From contig NZ_CP067124.1 in NCBI RefSeq assembly GCF_028553725.1, positions 248,001 to 312,000 of the forward strand: DNA of 64,000 bases. The letters run 5' to 3'. A program made the translations under genes and the position numbers. The notes under the pieces were generated by a model, which had not been told where the DNA came from, made no database searches, and saw nothing but the letters and a program-made list of their open reading frames with translations. This DNA is from Paracoccus alcaliphilus (GTDB lineage: Bacteria; Pseudomonadota; Alphaproteobacteria; Rhodobacterales; Rhodobacteraceae). Each line of letters begins with the position of its first letter. Position 1 is the stretch's first letter. Below are positions 1,294 to 6,720 of the stretch, one piece after another.

Positions 1294-2347
1294 AAGCATT
1301 TCTGTTTTAACCTGCGACATATCCTGCGGCCTTGAAGTAGTTCCAACATTCGCCGGGATCGAAGAGATCACAGACTTCGCCGATGGCCTTGAAGACGTCG
1401 GTAAATGTTCTTGCCCCGATCCTGCGCAGGTGCGCCTTGAGTTTTGCGAATGCCATTTCGATGGGGTTCAGGTCCGGCGAATATGGCGGCAGATAGAGAA
1501 ACCAGCAGCGATGGGCACGCAGAGCCTCAGCAGCCTGCTTGTTGTGGTGGGTGGCAAGGTTGTCGAGGATCACCACGGTTCCCGGCTCGATCTCCGGGAT
1601 CAGGACCTCGCGAACCCAGGCTGCGAAGGCGGGGCCGTCCATTGCGCCCCGGATGCACCAGGGCGCAATCAGGGCATCCGGTGTGAGCCCGGCGATCAGG
1701 GTCTGTGTTCCCCAGCTGCCGAAGGGCGCATCCATGGTCAGGCGTGTGCCGCGCAGGGCACGACCCCGCAGACGGGTGAGATTGGTCTTCACCGAGGTCT
1801 CGTCTATGAAAACCACGCGTTCCGGCCGATCCGCGATGGCTGGCAAGCGATGCTCGAACCAGTCGGTTCGCCGCTGTCTTACCCTGGCACCACGGCGTTC
1901 GGCGGCCACCAGCGACTTTTTTTATAGGTGAACCCAAGCCGCGACAGCAGACTGGCAATGGACGAGTGATGGACACGAACGCCTTCCGCTGCGACCAGCG
2001 CGTCCCTGAGTTCGAACAGCGTGATGTCGGGATCCTGTGCGAGCAGTTCCTCGAAAAAGGCCCGGTGCGGGGCAAGCTTTCCATGCCCTTTGGGACGTCC
2101 CTGGGGCAATGGTTCGGCATGCCCCCTGGTCCTGATCGCCCGGCCCCAACGTGCTCCGGTCGCCGGCGAGAGTTTCAGCCGCAGCGCCGCCGCCCGACCG
2201 CTTAAACCTTCCTCGATATATCGCTGAAACCGCGTCCGGAGCGCCGACGGCAATGGTGCTGACATGATCTATCCTCCCAGACAGAAGGGAATCACGATCC
2301 GCGCTGCGACGGAACCCCAAACGATTCAGGGTTCAGTAGAAATGCTT
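1294..2347 (-). mobile_element. IS630-family insertion sequence
   Basis: The inverted ends are AAGCATTTCT at 1294 and AGAAATGCTT ending at 2347. A TA dinucleotide flanks each side (1292-1293 and 2348-2349), as expected for IS630/Tc1-mariner elements that duplicate TA. The element is inserted in the 3' end of an IS5 transposase gene. It contains two overlapping frames that together make one transposase. Confidence 0.88.
1307..2265 (-). CDS. IS630-family transposase made by a -1 frameshift
   Basis: The upstream frame (2265 to about 1917) encodes an N-terminal helix-turn-helix region of roughly 115 residues, ending FTYKKS. The downstream frame (to 1307) carries the DDE domain, with D in VVFIDETSVKTN, D in VVILDNLATHHN and E in PYSPDLNPIEMAFAKLK. 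The frames join at a run of seven A (plus strand T7 at 1917-1923). A -1 slip there gives FTYKKKSLVAAERRG, the expected continuous family sequence, and a protein of about 319 residues, normal for the family. Programmed frameshifting is known in several IS families. A simple sequencing slip in the homopolymer is the alternative. Confidence 0.8.
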
Positions 2348-3312
2348 TAGGCGGACGATGTCGGCTTTGCCGAGGGCGTTGAAGCGGTTCATGAGTGCGA
2401 CGCGGATGTGGACTTCGGCGGTCTGGCGATCCGGGTCTCTCGCCATGATGCGTTCGCCGAAGGATTTCAGGCAGCGCATCCTCGCCTCGATCCGGCTGCG
2501 GGCGTGGTATCCAGTCCAACGTTTCCAGAAAGCCCGACCGTAATGTCGGGTGGCGCGCAGGGTGTCGTTTCGGGCGCGTGCCGCCGGGCAATCTTCCTTC
2601 CACAGCCGCCCGTTCTTGCGGATCGGAATGATCGGGGTGGCCTCACGCGCGAGGATAGCGGTGTGGCAGCGGCGCGTGTCATAGGCGTCGTCGGCGGTGA
2701 CCGTGCCGATCTTCTCGTCCGCCGGGATCTGGTCGAGTAGGTCGGGCAGAACGGGGCTGTCGCCGTCACGGCTAGGGGTGAATTCCACCGCGCGGATGTC
2801 GGACGTGGCCGGGTCCATCGCCAGATGCACCTTGCGCCATTGGCGCCGCCCCTGCACCCCGTGCTTGCGCGCCTGCCATTCGCCGTCGCCGAGGAACTTG
2901 ATGCCCGTGCTGTCGACCAGCAGGTTGAGCGGCCCGTCGGCGCGGCGATAGGGGATCTGCACGGCCAGGGTCTTCTGTCGGCGGCACAGCGTGAAAAAGT
3001 CAGGCACCGGCCAGTCCAGCCCCGCCAGCTTCAGCAGGCTCGCCACCATCCCGCCTCGCCAAGGTTCCTCGAACCAGTGGCGGAACCTGGCTCGATCTGG
3101 CGAAGCGGCAGCTTGAACAGGACCTTGATCGACAGGCAGAACTGTATCGCCGCATCGGAAAACACCGCTGGCCTCCCAGGCCTCCCATCACGCGGCGCAA
3201 GCCAGGTCATGTCCGTGTCCACCCAGATCAGCAGCGACCCCCGCTTGCGCAGCGATGCGTTGTAGCTGGACCAGTTCGTCGTGCGATAGCGGGCGGGTGA
3301 TGGCTTGCTCAT
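2333..3312 (-). pseudogene. IS5-family (IS903-type) transposase, broken by a small hairpin insertion and an IS630
   Basis: The N-terminal part runs from ATG at 3312 (MSKPSPARYRTTNW) to LPLRQ. The rest resumes in another frame at about 3049 (MVASLLKLAGLDW) and keeps the DDE residues, in LLVDSTGIKFLGDGEW and in RSRIEARMRCLKSFGERI. Compared with the intact copy at 5734, about 38 extra bases lie between LRQ and GMVAS. These contain the hairpin at 3058-3091. The C-terminus is cut off by the IS630 at 2348. The gene cannot give an active transposase. Confidence 0.85.
3058..3091 (-). repeat. Small hairpin insertion A (13-nt conserved loop)
   Basis: On the minus (gene sense) strand the arms are GCCAGGTTCC and GGAACCTTGGC, ten pairs with one bulged T. 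They enclose the loop GCCACTGGTTCGA. The hairpin lies in the extra bases that break the IS5 transposase frame. The same loop (12 of 13 bases) sits in an unrelated stem at 4700-4731 in another transposase gene. Its nature is unknown. Confidence 0.6.
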
Positions 3313-3445
3313 GCAGCGCGTCTAACGGCATGGATTCGCAAAGTGAATCACTTGCCGTCAGGCTTGTGCAACAACGCCGAGCGACAGGCATCGGTGTTCA
3401 GGTAGTCTCCACGCGCGAGACGGCGCCCGGAGCCGCTTATCGGGC

Positions 3446-3615
3446 TCATGCTGGTAGCAGCCGAGGCAGTCTGGCGAGGTTGTTGGCGGCCATCGTCAGG
3501 ATGAAGCGAGAACGCATCCGCTCGACGCCACGATAGACGGTTTGGACCATGCCGCCGACAGTCTTGGCCCAACCGAACGCCTCTTCGATCCGTTTGCGGC
3601 GCTTTATGGAAAGGC
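3446..3615 (-). pseudogene. C-terminal remnant of a different IS5-family transposase
   Basis: About 55 residues end at the stop at 3446. They include RRKRIEEAFGWAKTVGGM and RMRSRFILTMAANNLARL, the typical C-terminal glutamate-containing block of an IS5-family subgroup. The upstream coding part is missing: beyond about 3615 the sequence belongs to a sugar isomerase gene on the other strand. This scar marks the end that truncated that gene. Confidence 0.7.
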
Positions 3616-4201
3616 GGTGATGGACGATTTTCACGCCTCGATCGACATGGCGGCGGAACTGGGCGCGCCGGTCCTGACCATCGTCACCGGCGGGGTTCAG
3701 TCCGGAACGCGCGGCGTCACCGACAGCCTGCGCCTGGTGACCGACCGTGTGGCCGAGGCCGCCCCCTACGCCGCCTCGCGCGGCGTCAGGCTGGCGCTCG
3801 AGCCGCTGAACCCGGTCTATGGCGGCGACCGCTCCTGCCTGACCACCCTGCGCGACGCGCTGGACATCTGCGATGCCGTCGGCGCGCCCAATCTCGGCGT
3901 GGCGGTCGATGTCTATCATGTCTGGTGGGACACCGACCTGCCGCGCCAGCTGGCCCGCGCGGGCGACCGTATCCTCGGCTATCATCTCTGCGACTGGCTG
4001 GCCGATACCTCGGATGTGCTGCTGGATCGCGGCATGATGGGCGACGGCGTAGCCGATCTGAAGGCCATCCGCTCCGCGGTCGAGGCGGCGGGCTATGAAG
4101 GTCTCTGCGAGGTCGAAATCTTCTCGGCAAACAATTGGTGGAAGCGCGATCCGGCCGAGGTGCTGGATATGATTGTCATGCGTTTTCGGTCAGTTTGCTG
4201 A
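3616..4201 (+). pseudogene. Sugar phosphate isomerase/epimerase (xylose-isomerase-like TIM barrel), N-terminus lost
   Basis: About 195 residues of a TIM-barrel protein of the xylose isomerase-like superfamily remain. They include LALEPLNPVYGGDRSC (metal-ligand glutamate), NLGVAVDVYHVWWD (metal-site aspartate and histidine), GYHLCDW and LCEVEIFS. The family normally has about 270-290 residues, so the first third is gone, replaced by the IS5 scar ending near 3615. The apparent ATG at 3542 lies in IS sequence. The C-terminus (VMRFRSVC) looks natural. A further gene with a good ribosome site starts 19 bases downstream, so this was probably part of a sugar-catabolic operon. Confidence 0.75.
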
Positions 4202-4210
4202 TCTGTAACT

Positions 4211-4231
4211 GGAGGAAATCATGAGTCGACT
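4211..4231 (+). pseudogene. First codons of the next operon gene, cut by an IS
   Basis: A strong Shine-Dalgarno (GGAGG at 4211-4215) precedes ATG at 4221, followed by only AGT CGA CTC before the left end of the IS at about 4231. This was the start of the gene after the sugar isomerase. The rest is not in the window. Confidence 0.45.
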
Positions 4232-4699
4232 CTGACCAACGCGGAACGCGTTGATATTGCGTGATCATCCTGCGGTTTTGTTGGTGTTTTCTTGCAGGAT
4301 TTTGTAATCTTGACGCAGAAACCCTGCAATTTGTGATCGCCAATGAAGCCCCATTTCCGGACCGCCGAACAGGATGATCTTCTGCGCCCCAGGCTGGTGG
4401 ATATGATCGATCCGCGCCACGAGTTGGTGAAGCTCGCGGCGCTGATCGACTGGGAGTTCTTCGAGCGGGAATGGGCCGGGTTCTTCCCCTCGGCGACGGG
4501 GCGCCCGGCGACTTCTCCGCGTCTGATCGCCGGGCTGATGTATCTGCAGCATGCGTTCAAGCTGTCGGACGAGGCGGTGGTCGCCCGTTGGGTCGAGAAC
4601 CCCTACTACCAGCATTTCACCGGCGAGACCTTCTTTCAGCATCGCCCGCCTATTGATCCGTCATCGCTGGTGCGCTGGCGCAAGAGGATCGGTGAGTGA

Positions 4700-4731
4700 G
4701 GCGTGAGCCGCCACTGGTTCAAGGCCACGCC
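4700..4731 (+). repeat. Small hairpin insertion B (13-nt conserved loop)
   Basis: The arms GGCGTGAGCC and GGCCACGCC form nine pairs with one bulged A around the loop GCCACTGGTTCAA. The hairpin lies in about 35 extra bases between codons for RIGE and VEWLL, and it shifts the frame. The loop matches the one at 3058-3091 in 12 of 13 bases, while the stem is unrelated. Confidence 0.6.
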
Positions 4732-5666
4732 GAACGCGTGGAATGGCTGTTGACCAAGACGATCGAGGCTGGCCGCAGTTCCGGGACGATCACCGACAAG
4801 GTCCTGAAACGGGTGGTGGTCGATACGACGGTCATGGAAAAGAACATCGCCCATCCGACGGACGCCCGGCTCTACGAGCGGGCCCGCGCCCTGCTGGTTG
4901 GTCTGGCGAAGAGGGCCGGGATCGAACTGCGCCAGAGCTATGCCCGTCTTGCACCGCGGCTGGCGATCCAGGTCGGGCGCTACGCCCATGCCCGCCAGTT
5001 CAAACGCATGCGCAAGGCGCTGCGCCAACTCAAGGGCCATGTCGGCCGGGTGCGTCGCGATCTGCGCCGGCACCTGCAGGACATCCCGCAAAGCCCCCTG
5101 CGCGAGAGGGTTGTGGACGCCCTCTGGCTGGTCGGCCGCCTGCTGGAACAGGGACCAAAGAGCCGCGACAAGGTCTATTCCCTGCACGAGCCCGAGGTCG
5201 ATTGCATCTCCAAAGGCAAGGCACGGGTGCGATACGAGTTTGGCACCAAGGTCAGCCTCGCCACGACCCTTGTCGGCGGCCTCATAGTTGGCGCCCGCAG
5301 CTTTCCCGGCAATCCCCATGACGGCCACACCCTGGCACCGGCCCTCGAACAGGTCGAAATTCTGACCGATACGAGGCCCACACTCGCCCTGGTCGACCGC
5401 GGCTATCGCGGGCATGGCATCGAGACCACCCGCGTCCTGATCAGCGGCCAGCGGCGCGGTATCACCCCGGCGCTGGCGAAGCTCCTCAAACGGCGCAGCG
5501 CCATCGAGCCCGAGATCGGCCACATGAAATCAGACGGCAGATTGACCAGATGCCCCCTGAAGGGCAGGATCGGCGATGCCATCTTCGCCGTGCTCTGCGC
5601 CTGCGGCCACAACATCCGAAAGATCCTCGCCCATATCAGGGCTCTTTGGGCCTTCGTCATCCGCTT

Positions 5667-6720
5667 GGCGTTGTTGCAGAACTCCGTTTTCTGAGGGATT
5701 CACACTGCGAATCCAGTGGGCTAAGGGGCGAGTATGAGCAAGCCTGAGCCGACCCGCTACCGCACGATGAACTGGAAGTCCTACAACGATGCCTTGAAGC
5801 GGCGCGGGTCCCTTCTGATCTGGCTGGACAAGGACATGGTTTGGCGCGCACCCAAATCCGGATGCAATGGTCGGCCGCCGGTCTTCTCTGATGCCGCGAT
5901 CCAGTTCTGCTTGATGGTGAAGGTTCTGTTCGGCCTGCCTCTGCGGCAAACGACAGGGATGGTGGCGAGCATCCTTTCGATGGCCGGGCTCGACTGGCGG
6001 GTGCCCGATTTCTCGACCCTGAGCCGCAGGCAGAAGCGCATCACGGTTCAGATCACGAGCCGCCGTGCGCCGGGGCCGCTGAACCTGCTGGTGGACAGCA
6101 CCGGGATCAAGTTTCTTGGTGATGGGGAATGGCTTGCCCGCAAGCATGGCCCGCATCGCCGACGCCAATATCGTAAGGTTCATCTGGCGATGGACACGGC
6201 TACAGGTGACATCCGCGCCGTCGAATTCACCTCAAGCCGTGAAGGCGACAGCCCTGTTCTGCCCGACCTGCTCAACCAGATCCCAGAGGATGAACAGATC
6301 GGCACCGTCACCGGCGACGGTGCCTTTGACACCCGACGCTGCCACACCGCGATCCTGGATCGAGGCGGCACCGCCATCATCCCGATCCGGAGGAATGGCC
6401 GTCTCTGGAAGGAGGATTGCCCCGCAGCCAGGGCGCGCAACGAGATCCTCCGGGCAACCCAGCGCTTGGGCAGGGCCATATGGAAGCGCTGGTCAGGTTA
6501 TCACGTCCGAAGCAGGATCGAGGCAAGGATGCGCTGCCTCAAGGCCTTCGGTGAACGCATCTCATCACGAGACCCGGACCGCCAGACCGCCGAAATCCAT
6601 ATCCGCATCGCCCTCATGAACCGCTTCAATGCCCTCGGATCCGCCGAGATCAAACGCGTGGCATGAACTCAACGCGGAAAGGGAAAACTGCGCTCACACA
6701 CTGACTTCTGCAACAACGCC
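5667..6720 (+). mobile_element. Intact IS5-family element, IS903 group, with 9-bp target duplication
   Basis: The ends are GGCGTTGTTGCAGAA at 5667 and its inverted copy TTCTGCAACAACGCC ending at 6720. The direct repeat CATCCGCTT flanks the element at 5658-5666 and 6721-6729. A 9-bp duplication is the hallmark of the IS903 group of IS5. The element is 1,054 bp and carries one uninterrupted transposase gene, so it may still move. Confidence 0.93.
5734..6666 (+). CDS. IS5-family (IS903 group) transposase, intact
   Basis: 310 residues, the usual length for IS903-type transposases. The N-terminus MSKPEPTRYRTMNWKSYN and the block LPLRQTTGMVASILSMAG match the family pattern. Catalytic D residues lie in NLLVDSTGIKFLGDGEW (about 118) and in GDGAFDTRRCH (about 199), and E in YHVRSRIEARMRC (about 268). 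The gene fills a complete element with inverted ends and a 9-bp duplication. It serves as the intact reference that shows where the copy at 2333-3312 is broken. Confidence 0.93.
   Translation: MSKPEPTRYRTMNWKSYNDALKRRGSLLIWLDKDMVWRAPKSGCNGRPPVFSDAAIQFCLMVKVLFGLPLRQTTGMVASILSMAGLDWRVPDFSTLSRRQKRITVQITSRRAPGPLNLLVDSTGIKFLGDGEWLARKHGPHRRRQYRKVHLAMDTATGDIRAVEFTSSREGDSPVLPDLLNQIPEDEQIGTVTGDGAFDTRRCHTAILDRGGTAIIPIRRNGRLWKEDCPAARARNEILRATQRLGRAIWKRWSGYHVRSRIEARMRCLKAFGERISSRDPDRQTAEIHIRIALMNRFNALGSAEIKRVA

Follow-up and report, generated by a model that had tools for sequence, protein, structure and literature searches.

How two transposase genes came to carry hairpins with nearly the same loop and unrelated stems is the question raised by this locus. 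The window, a stretch of 64,000 nucleotides from Paracoccus alcaliphilus (NZ_CP067124.1, positions 248,001 to 312,000), holds both hairpins (Table 1), and the original prediction described each as an insertion in a transposase gene. The two look-alike loops are present exactly as predicted, GCCACTGGTTCGA on the minus strand and GCCACTGGTTCAA on the plus strand, and the stems, read from the sequence, have one bulged base each, as claimed. The hairpins are real but larger than had been thought, as two extra outer pairs and a tandem G.A step extend them to 42 nt and 40 nt. By Pfam scan, both host genes encode an IS5-type transposase, and each is broken into two open frames. A scan of the window for the loop 13-mer with 2 mismatches gave 3 matches against 2.96 expected, which by itself is not above chance. 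A 17-mer shared by the two hairpins, CCGCCACTGGTTCRAGG, is found at 13 places in the genome and its reversed form, used as a control, at 0; the occurrences are 5 near-identical copies of IS-A and 8 copies of IS-B, of which 6 are near-identical and 2 are about 17% diverged (L005 and L009, the latter partial). The surroundings vary among the copies, and the hairpin is present in every one. We note that 77 nt around the hairpin are identical between the diverged IS-B copy L005 and L003. We also note that, towards the 3' end (2333-2400), the IS-A copy in the window ceases to resemble the other copies, apparently having been cut by an adjoining element. Finally, two overlapping minus-strand frames at 1307-2265 look transposase-like by eye, and a run of seven T's that adjoins their overlap may be suggestive of programmed slippage.

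Table 1. Features of the two interrupted transposase genes and of an intact relative of IS-A, in window coordinates. R1 is the covariance model built from 19 hairpins that include A and B, so that both bit scores are self-included.
Feature	Position	Strand	Remarks
Hairpin element A	3054..3095	minus	42 nt, TC..GG end type; inside IS5/ISPpa4-type transposase gene; R1, 54.6 bits
Loop of hairpin A, 13 nt	3069..3081	minus	GCCACTGGTTCGA
Interrupted IS-A transposase, 5' part	3031..3312	minus	Pfam DDE_Tnp_1_5
Interrupted IS-A transposase, 3' part	2333..3049	minus	Pfam DDE_Tnp_1
Hairpin element B	4696..4735	plus	40 nt, GT..AC end type; inside IS5-family transposase gene; R1, 61.0 bits
Loop of hairpin B, 13 nt	4710..4722	plus	GCCACTGGTTCAA
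Interrupted IS-B transposase, 5' part	4343..4699	plus	DUF772; ends at TGA at hairpin base
Interrupted IS-B transposase, 3' part	4696..5694	plus	Open frame that runs out of hairpin
Intact IS5 relative of IS-A	5734..6666	plus	Homologous site without hairpin

Whether the hairpins were inserted can be read from relatives that lack them. A copy of ISPpa4 on a plasmid of Paracoccus pantotrophus (L141) is IS-A without the hairpin; aligned over 1031 columns, the two differ by 12 mismatches and 38 columns of gap. Recent movement would be the simplest reading of this pair. IS-B has a net 35 bases more at the hairpin than three uninterrupted IS5-family relatives (L143-L145). Measured against such homologues, the predicted net additions of 38 bases (A) and 35 bases (B) are correct, and the possibility that the bases are ordinary coding sequence is countered by homologues of both transposases that do without them. 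Moreover, a pattern search of this genome with up to 3 mismatches found no uninterrupted ISPpa4 junction (six places with 2 to 3 mismatches were seen) although IS-A is present in 5 copies. Thus, IS-A apparently multiplied with the insert aboard, by itself or with the help of a related intact IS. The ends of the intact IS at 5734-6666 look similar to those of IS-A by eye, and it is a possible related helper.

The target length that gives way to a hairpin is nearly constant. An empty homologue was available for 71 of 89 distinct sites, and at each the flanks were joined by script and aligned to the homologous sequence without the hairpin. Four target bases were replaced in 33 of the 71, five in 31, and another number in 7 (1, 1, 3, 6, 6, 6, and 6), whereas control junctions 110 nt away had zero extra bases in 59 of 69 cases. 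Filled and empty sequences were at least 85% identical in 12 of the 71 pairs, and the replaced length was 4 or 5 in all 12. As the junction lengths are 4 or 5 at 64 of 71 sites against the zeros of the control, we conclude that the hairpin replaces 4 to 5 target bases and that target-site duplication is absent. The word insertion therefore holds insofar as the hairpins are inserts, but the event is not clean, as target bases are exchanged. Among 90 sites, 61 have an A immediately left of the insert, 83 have a purine as the third base, and 73 have a G immediately to the right.

What the hairpins share is an architecture. At the base of each are two outer pairs, followed by GA facing GA; about 6 pairs form the lower stem and 3 to 4 pairs the upper stem, a bulge or internal step separates the two stems, and the 13-nt loop closes the hairpin. 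Among 89 stem-filtered sites, 81 have a loop that fits GCCAYYGGTYCRA, 87 are 40 to 43 nt long, and 86 and 88 have standard pairs at the two outer positions, although all sites beyond the first 19 (sets of 88, 90, and 46) were stem filtered, so that their pairing is partly circular. The outer ends are GT..AC in 42 of 90 sites, TC..GG in 20, AT..AT in 6, CT..AG in 5, GC..GC in 5, and others in the rest. A pyrimidine precedes the 5' GA in 84 of 89 sites, and a purine follows it in all 89. Pyrimidine-GA-purine is a stable tandem sheared G.A motif in DNA, and thus single-stranded DNA, like RNA, could adopt the fold.

Covariation was measured in the 19 hairpins that were aligned first, which were hand-picked from loop matches by loop and ends and omit L016, L034, L044, and the intergenic copies. 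In that alignment, 94.0% of cells were paired versus 67.9% after shuffling, and 33 cells were changed on both sides. The covariation score was 0.604 versus 0.182 for shuffles, none of 500 of which reached it, and at most 0.100 when the alignment was slid. Pairs with changes on both sides numbered 8, versus 5.5 in shuffles, 5 of 500 of which reached 8. Single-sequence RNA folding energies of six sequences gave competing structures and several weak z-scores (+1.21 to -3.10), and thus the case rests on covariation and not on energy. When loop-only matches were given a free-offset stem test, at least 7 consecutive pairs were found in 71 of 107, versus 37% when the arms were mixed and 18% when positions were taken at random, a weak result. 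The covarying stem claimed in the original prediction is borne out, as the search for further copies with a conserved loop returned dozens in which differing stems are paired. Judging from the alignments, what is conserved is the fold (outer pairs, tandem G.A, stem, and bulge) and the loop, not the letters of the stem. We conclude that the hairpin family is real, structurally constrained, and inserted.

Where the family resides was determined with R1, using a looser threshold for the genus than for the family and the class. R1 found 29 copies in this genome and matched 100 of the 125 Paracoccus genomes searched at E<=0.01. At E<=1e-5, it matched 75 of 295 genomes sampled evenly across the family but only 5 of 385 sampled from the class, one of them being this genome. 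Near-exact copies in a plasmid collection were found in 6, 7, and 10 records for three queries, all genera of which we take to belong to the Rhodobacterales (taxonomy lines confirm five of nine). Of the 23 plasmid matches, 19 lie where no feature is annotated, 3 are in unannotated records, and 1 falls on an annotated DUF1153 protein. Scanning named genomes with a pattern gave at least 120 stretches; of the 80 listed, the majority carry Rhodobacterales names, and several of the rest are stemless. The hairpin family is probably resident mainly in the Rhodobacteraceae mobilome. None of 11 hairpin loci matched Rfam 15 at E<=1, and at gathering thresholds only a tRNA was recognized in the window. 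An earlier description was not found in the open-access literature on palindromic repeats of Paracoccus or the Rhodobacteraceae, on ISPpa4, on bypassing in transposases, or on inserts with a conserved loop, including PMC3733652, PMC3281130, PMC11578231, and PMC12306157; within that literature, an undescribed miniature hairpin element, as first proposed, is the best description.

The loop also has look-alikes. Searching the genus with the loop alone turned up tRNA-Val, a single protein motif, and numerous hairpins whose stems are unrelated, and we note that GCCACTGGTTCGA is also the variable loop and start of the T arm of tRNA-Val(GAC) in the genus (L015, L017, L026, and others). From 30 loop-matching loci we discarded 10 as tRNA-Val (6 by ARAGORN and 4 by identical sequence), 7 as a protein-coding motif, and 2 as otherwise stemless, and 11 hairpins remained. 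Similar hairpins with a different repeated flank lie outside the family (L297, L300, and L302/L305), one pair of them 97 nt apart.

Which genes carry the hairpins was read from their flanks. Among 83 scanned of 109 prepared flank fragments, the 23 Pfam families matched (fragments without a match being uncounted) were transposase, helper, integrase, or helix-turn-helix families, with one weak exception. Of 23 loci from other genera, 16 had a transposase-type domain, 2 a generic helix-turn-helix, 1 a resolvase helix-turn-helix, 1 a gene-transfer-agent TIM barrel, and 3 nothing. Among the 16, two were weak, five were recognized by HTH_21 alone, which we take to be usual in IS3 transposases, and one (L217) continues into a host-type ABC transporter domain. 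Likewise, for 62 fragments from 43 named-genome loci (one, L399, with hand-chosen coordinates), the 25 families listed of 31 were transposases, integrases, TniB, and recombinases, as well as one host-type oxidoreductase fragment (L337) and five generic domains. The transposases hit include the IS3, IS5, IS21, IS66, IS110, and IS256 types, and in two genera (L034 and L207) the hairpin is in the megatron/TIM-barrel gene of a gene transfer agent.

Certain nucleotides are occupied again and again. At the LRQ site of IS5 transposases, eight branches of a FastTree tree, counted irrespective of branch support, have a hairpin at the same nucleotide, and the filled lineages have several stems and nearest relatives that are mostly empty. 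In that tree, the nearest row to the distant L190 is an IS-A copy; when checked individually, L231 and the IS-A copy L278 are filled, and L044 is without a hairpin there. Other IS5 positions, such as the VDSTGIK codons, are also hit repeatedly, and some insertion sites, those codons among them, are presumably at or beside catalytic residues. Two or more sites occur in 16 of 69 loci, and in one IS5 transposase (L273) a second hairpin with class-I-like ends is nested in the loop of the first.

How the hairpins affect reading frames differs between IS and phage genes. The palindrome lies inside open reading frames, including those of IS-A, IS-B, and phage genes; the frame is kept at three distinct phage gene sites, L337 is possibly a host gene, and the frame is random in IS genes. 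Net length modulo 3 at 64 sites was 20, 23, and 21 for remainders 0, 1, and 2. Among 20 clearly coding-flanked sites (of 46), 13 were sense and 7 antisense; the frame was kept at 6, shifted at 12, and kept but with a stop at 2. The frame shift and sense orientation that had been predicted are thus true of A and B, but neither is general for the family. By these comparisons, the hairpin sits as a unit in place of 4 to 5 target bases and recurs at certain nucleotides; it is found in any frame and in both orientations, and IS copies with the hairpin aboard have multiplied.

Relatives of the hairpin are also found in intergenic and viral DNA. In Paracoccus intergenic regions, a close relative has a perfect lower stem without the G.A step and sits in a terminator-like repeat (TTCTTC...CAAATA...GGGGG/CCCCC; e.g., L023, L049-L063, and L097-L132). 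By an ORF heuristic, 30 of 55 intergenic-type cases lie between convergent genes and 3 between divergent genes, in a list that is loosely filtered and includes a few other matches. The T-rich flank of the repeat was found in 46 copies with the hairpin and 11 without it, counted in loci that had been fetched for hairpins, and not all 11 empty copies have the full repeat. In viral contigs, a first scan gave 12 stretches: three contigs with capsid genes, four with terminase genes, four with IS256/IS3-type transposases, and one unscanned. The three major capsid gene contigs are identical over 1800 bases, and the terminase genes of the four contigs have the hairpin at two places. In both the capsid and the terminase genes, the hairpin is sense and in frame, and at one of the terminase places, double compensatory changes distinguish the stems of two relatives. 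The terminase pairs L313/L317 and L311/L315 are large-subunit genes with in-frame hairpins, one of which presumably adjoins the Walker B motif. A hairpin of the same type is conserved in five diverged viral contigs (L321, L324, L328, L329, and L330) at the overlap of two open frames, and five other matches from the second viral scan (L320, L322, L325, L327, and L331) were discarded as stemless, plain coding sequence. Three element queries had no match in cultured phage records.

We think it probable that A and B belong to a family of mobile hairpins of about 41 nt that lack a gene of their own and whose fold and loop are read by a trans-acting enzyme. The enzyme would recognize the folded single strand through its loop and base, and the strand would be joined into a break with a 4- to 5-nt stagger, the overhang being lost. 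The excess of transposases among the targets may combine target preference with survival in dispensable DNA. Some observations speak against mobility. Target duplication, a usual mark of transposition, is absent, just 12 of the 71 filled and empty pairs reach 85% identity, and the in-frame terminase hairpins with compensatory changes could reflect long residence and function rather than recent insertion. Mobilization by a RAYT was rejected, as the Y1 transposase family PF01797 had 0 matches in this genome, with matches in 3 of 10 genomes searched. A template-switch origin of the hairpins is also conceivable.

Whether the mobile hairpins choose their targets is less certain. Insertion might be essentially blind to gene type, with hairpins eliminated from host genes but retained in dispensable IS copies, in intergenic repeats, and in phage genes that tolerate them, and with IS copies multiplying the hairpins they carry. 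We consider this account, which is compatible with mobile hairpins read in trans, to have a little less than an even chance. In its favor, the three net frames are as evenly represented as they would be in the absence of selection, hairpins in phage genes are sense and keep the frame, the intergenic copies lie in a terminator-like repeat, and the fragment beside one hairpin (L337) matches a host-type oxidoreductase. The hairpins are nonetheless clustered within loci, and in-frame cases in host genes, which should be as tolerable as those in phage genes, are almost unseen in the scanned fragments. The crowding of hairpins within IS loci and the rarity of hits in host genes favor some targeting of transposases, whereas the random frames favor survival in dispensable DNA.

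A more directed origin is unlikely: a process in Rhodobacteraceae that writes short structured inserts at preferred codons, some catalytic, of transposase and phage genes, replacing 4 to 5 bases by a new structure-read chemistry and possibly limiting transposons. We likewise doubt a targeted process against mobile DNA, in which a guide or motif directs a structured insert into conserved codons of transposase and phage genes as natural editing or silencing. The range of genes hit (six transposase types, phage terminase and capsid, and gene transfer agent), the repeated filling of one nucleotide in divergent IS5 genes, and the sites at or beside presumably catalytic residues are consistent with targeting, but IS-A and IS-B multiplied after gaining the insert, and the phage insertions are in frame.

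Alternatively, the hairpin could be a vertically inherited RNA device, selected for translational bypassing or coupling. The 77 identical nt in IS-B copies that are otherwise about 17% diverged, the hairpin conserved at the overlap of open frames in viral contigs, and the double compensatory change between two terminase copies would all suit such a device. The effects on frame look random and the orientation is mixed, however, and thus a role in translation is unlikely; moreover, most filled IS5 lineages have empty nearest neighbors, and we regard the device as quite improbable. Bypass or recoding, prompted by the IS-B stop at the hairpin base and by the frame shifts, was rejected on account of the three net frames and the antisense copies, and a likeness to domain V of group II introns (GAGCC...GGTTC) was rejected because the 5' arm changes without the loop. 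Finally, that gene conversion or recombination among IS copies spread one ancestral insertion is very improbable, for while related IS5 genes are filled at the same site and diverged IS-B copies share 77 identical nt, one site has different stems and end types, the sites are in unrelated IS families with flanks that differ a few bases away, and the arms of hairpin B recur at several unrelated sites, for which conversion alone is insufficient.

Mobile hairpins read in trans, the reading that we prefer, would rank at about 41 nt among the smallest known mobile units, with little fixed sequence beyond the 13-nt loop. The near-constant replacement of 4 to 5 bp points to a defined insertion chemistry, and the hairpins explain a class of frame-broken transposase genes in the Rhodobacterales. 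With filled and empty sites plentiful in these bacteria, some genera of which are easily grown, the movement of gene-less palindromes becomes testable, a question shared with REP-like and Rickettsia elements.

How the hairpins compare with known systems depends on the feature considered. The bypassing elements of T4 gene 60 and of yeast mitochondria are short hairpin inserts that shift or interrupt the frame of coding genes; they would be expected to be sense with a constant net frame, whereas the hairpins here are antisense in about a third of the oriented sites and fall in all three net frames. Integron attC sites are likewise recognized as folded strands, with conserved structure and variable sequence. 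By eye, however, no R and L boxes or cassettes were seen here, and target bases are lost. MITEPye1 of Paracoccus yeei is likewise non-autonomous, foldable, and at home in Paracoccus, and PMC11578231 describes it as preferentially intergenic, with IS1182-like terminal repeats and direct repeats. The hairpins, in contrast, have no target duplication. CGTC-tagged repeats and Rickettsia palindromic elements are also alphaproteobacterial palindromes with intragenic units and no known dedicated transposase, and PMC3733652 gives them loops of 4 to 5 nt and stems of 8 to 9 bp. The hairpins are set apart from them by a 13-nt loop and a tandem G.A step. The same source describes REPs as mainly extragenic and tagged GTAG or CGTC (PMC3733652). 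Neither tag was seen at the foot of the palindrome among 90 sites, where the ends are GT..AC, TC..GG, and others. REP and REPIN sequences, GTAG-tagged and paired with TnpA-REP (RAYT), resemble the hairpins as gene-less palindromes of 20 to 40 nt in many subfamilies with different stems, and the hairpins differ from them in having a conserved 13-nt loop, in residing in transposase genes, and in replacing 4 to 5 bp of their targets.
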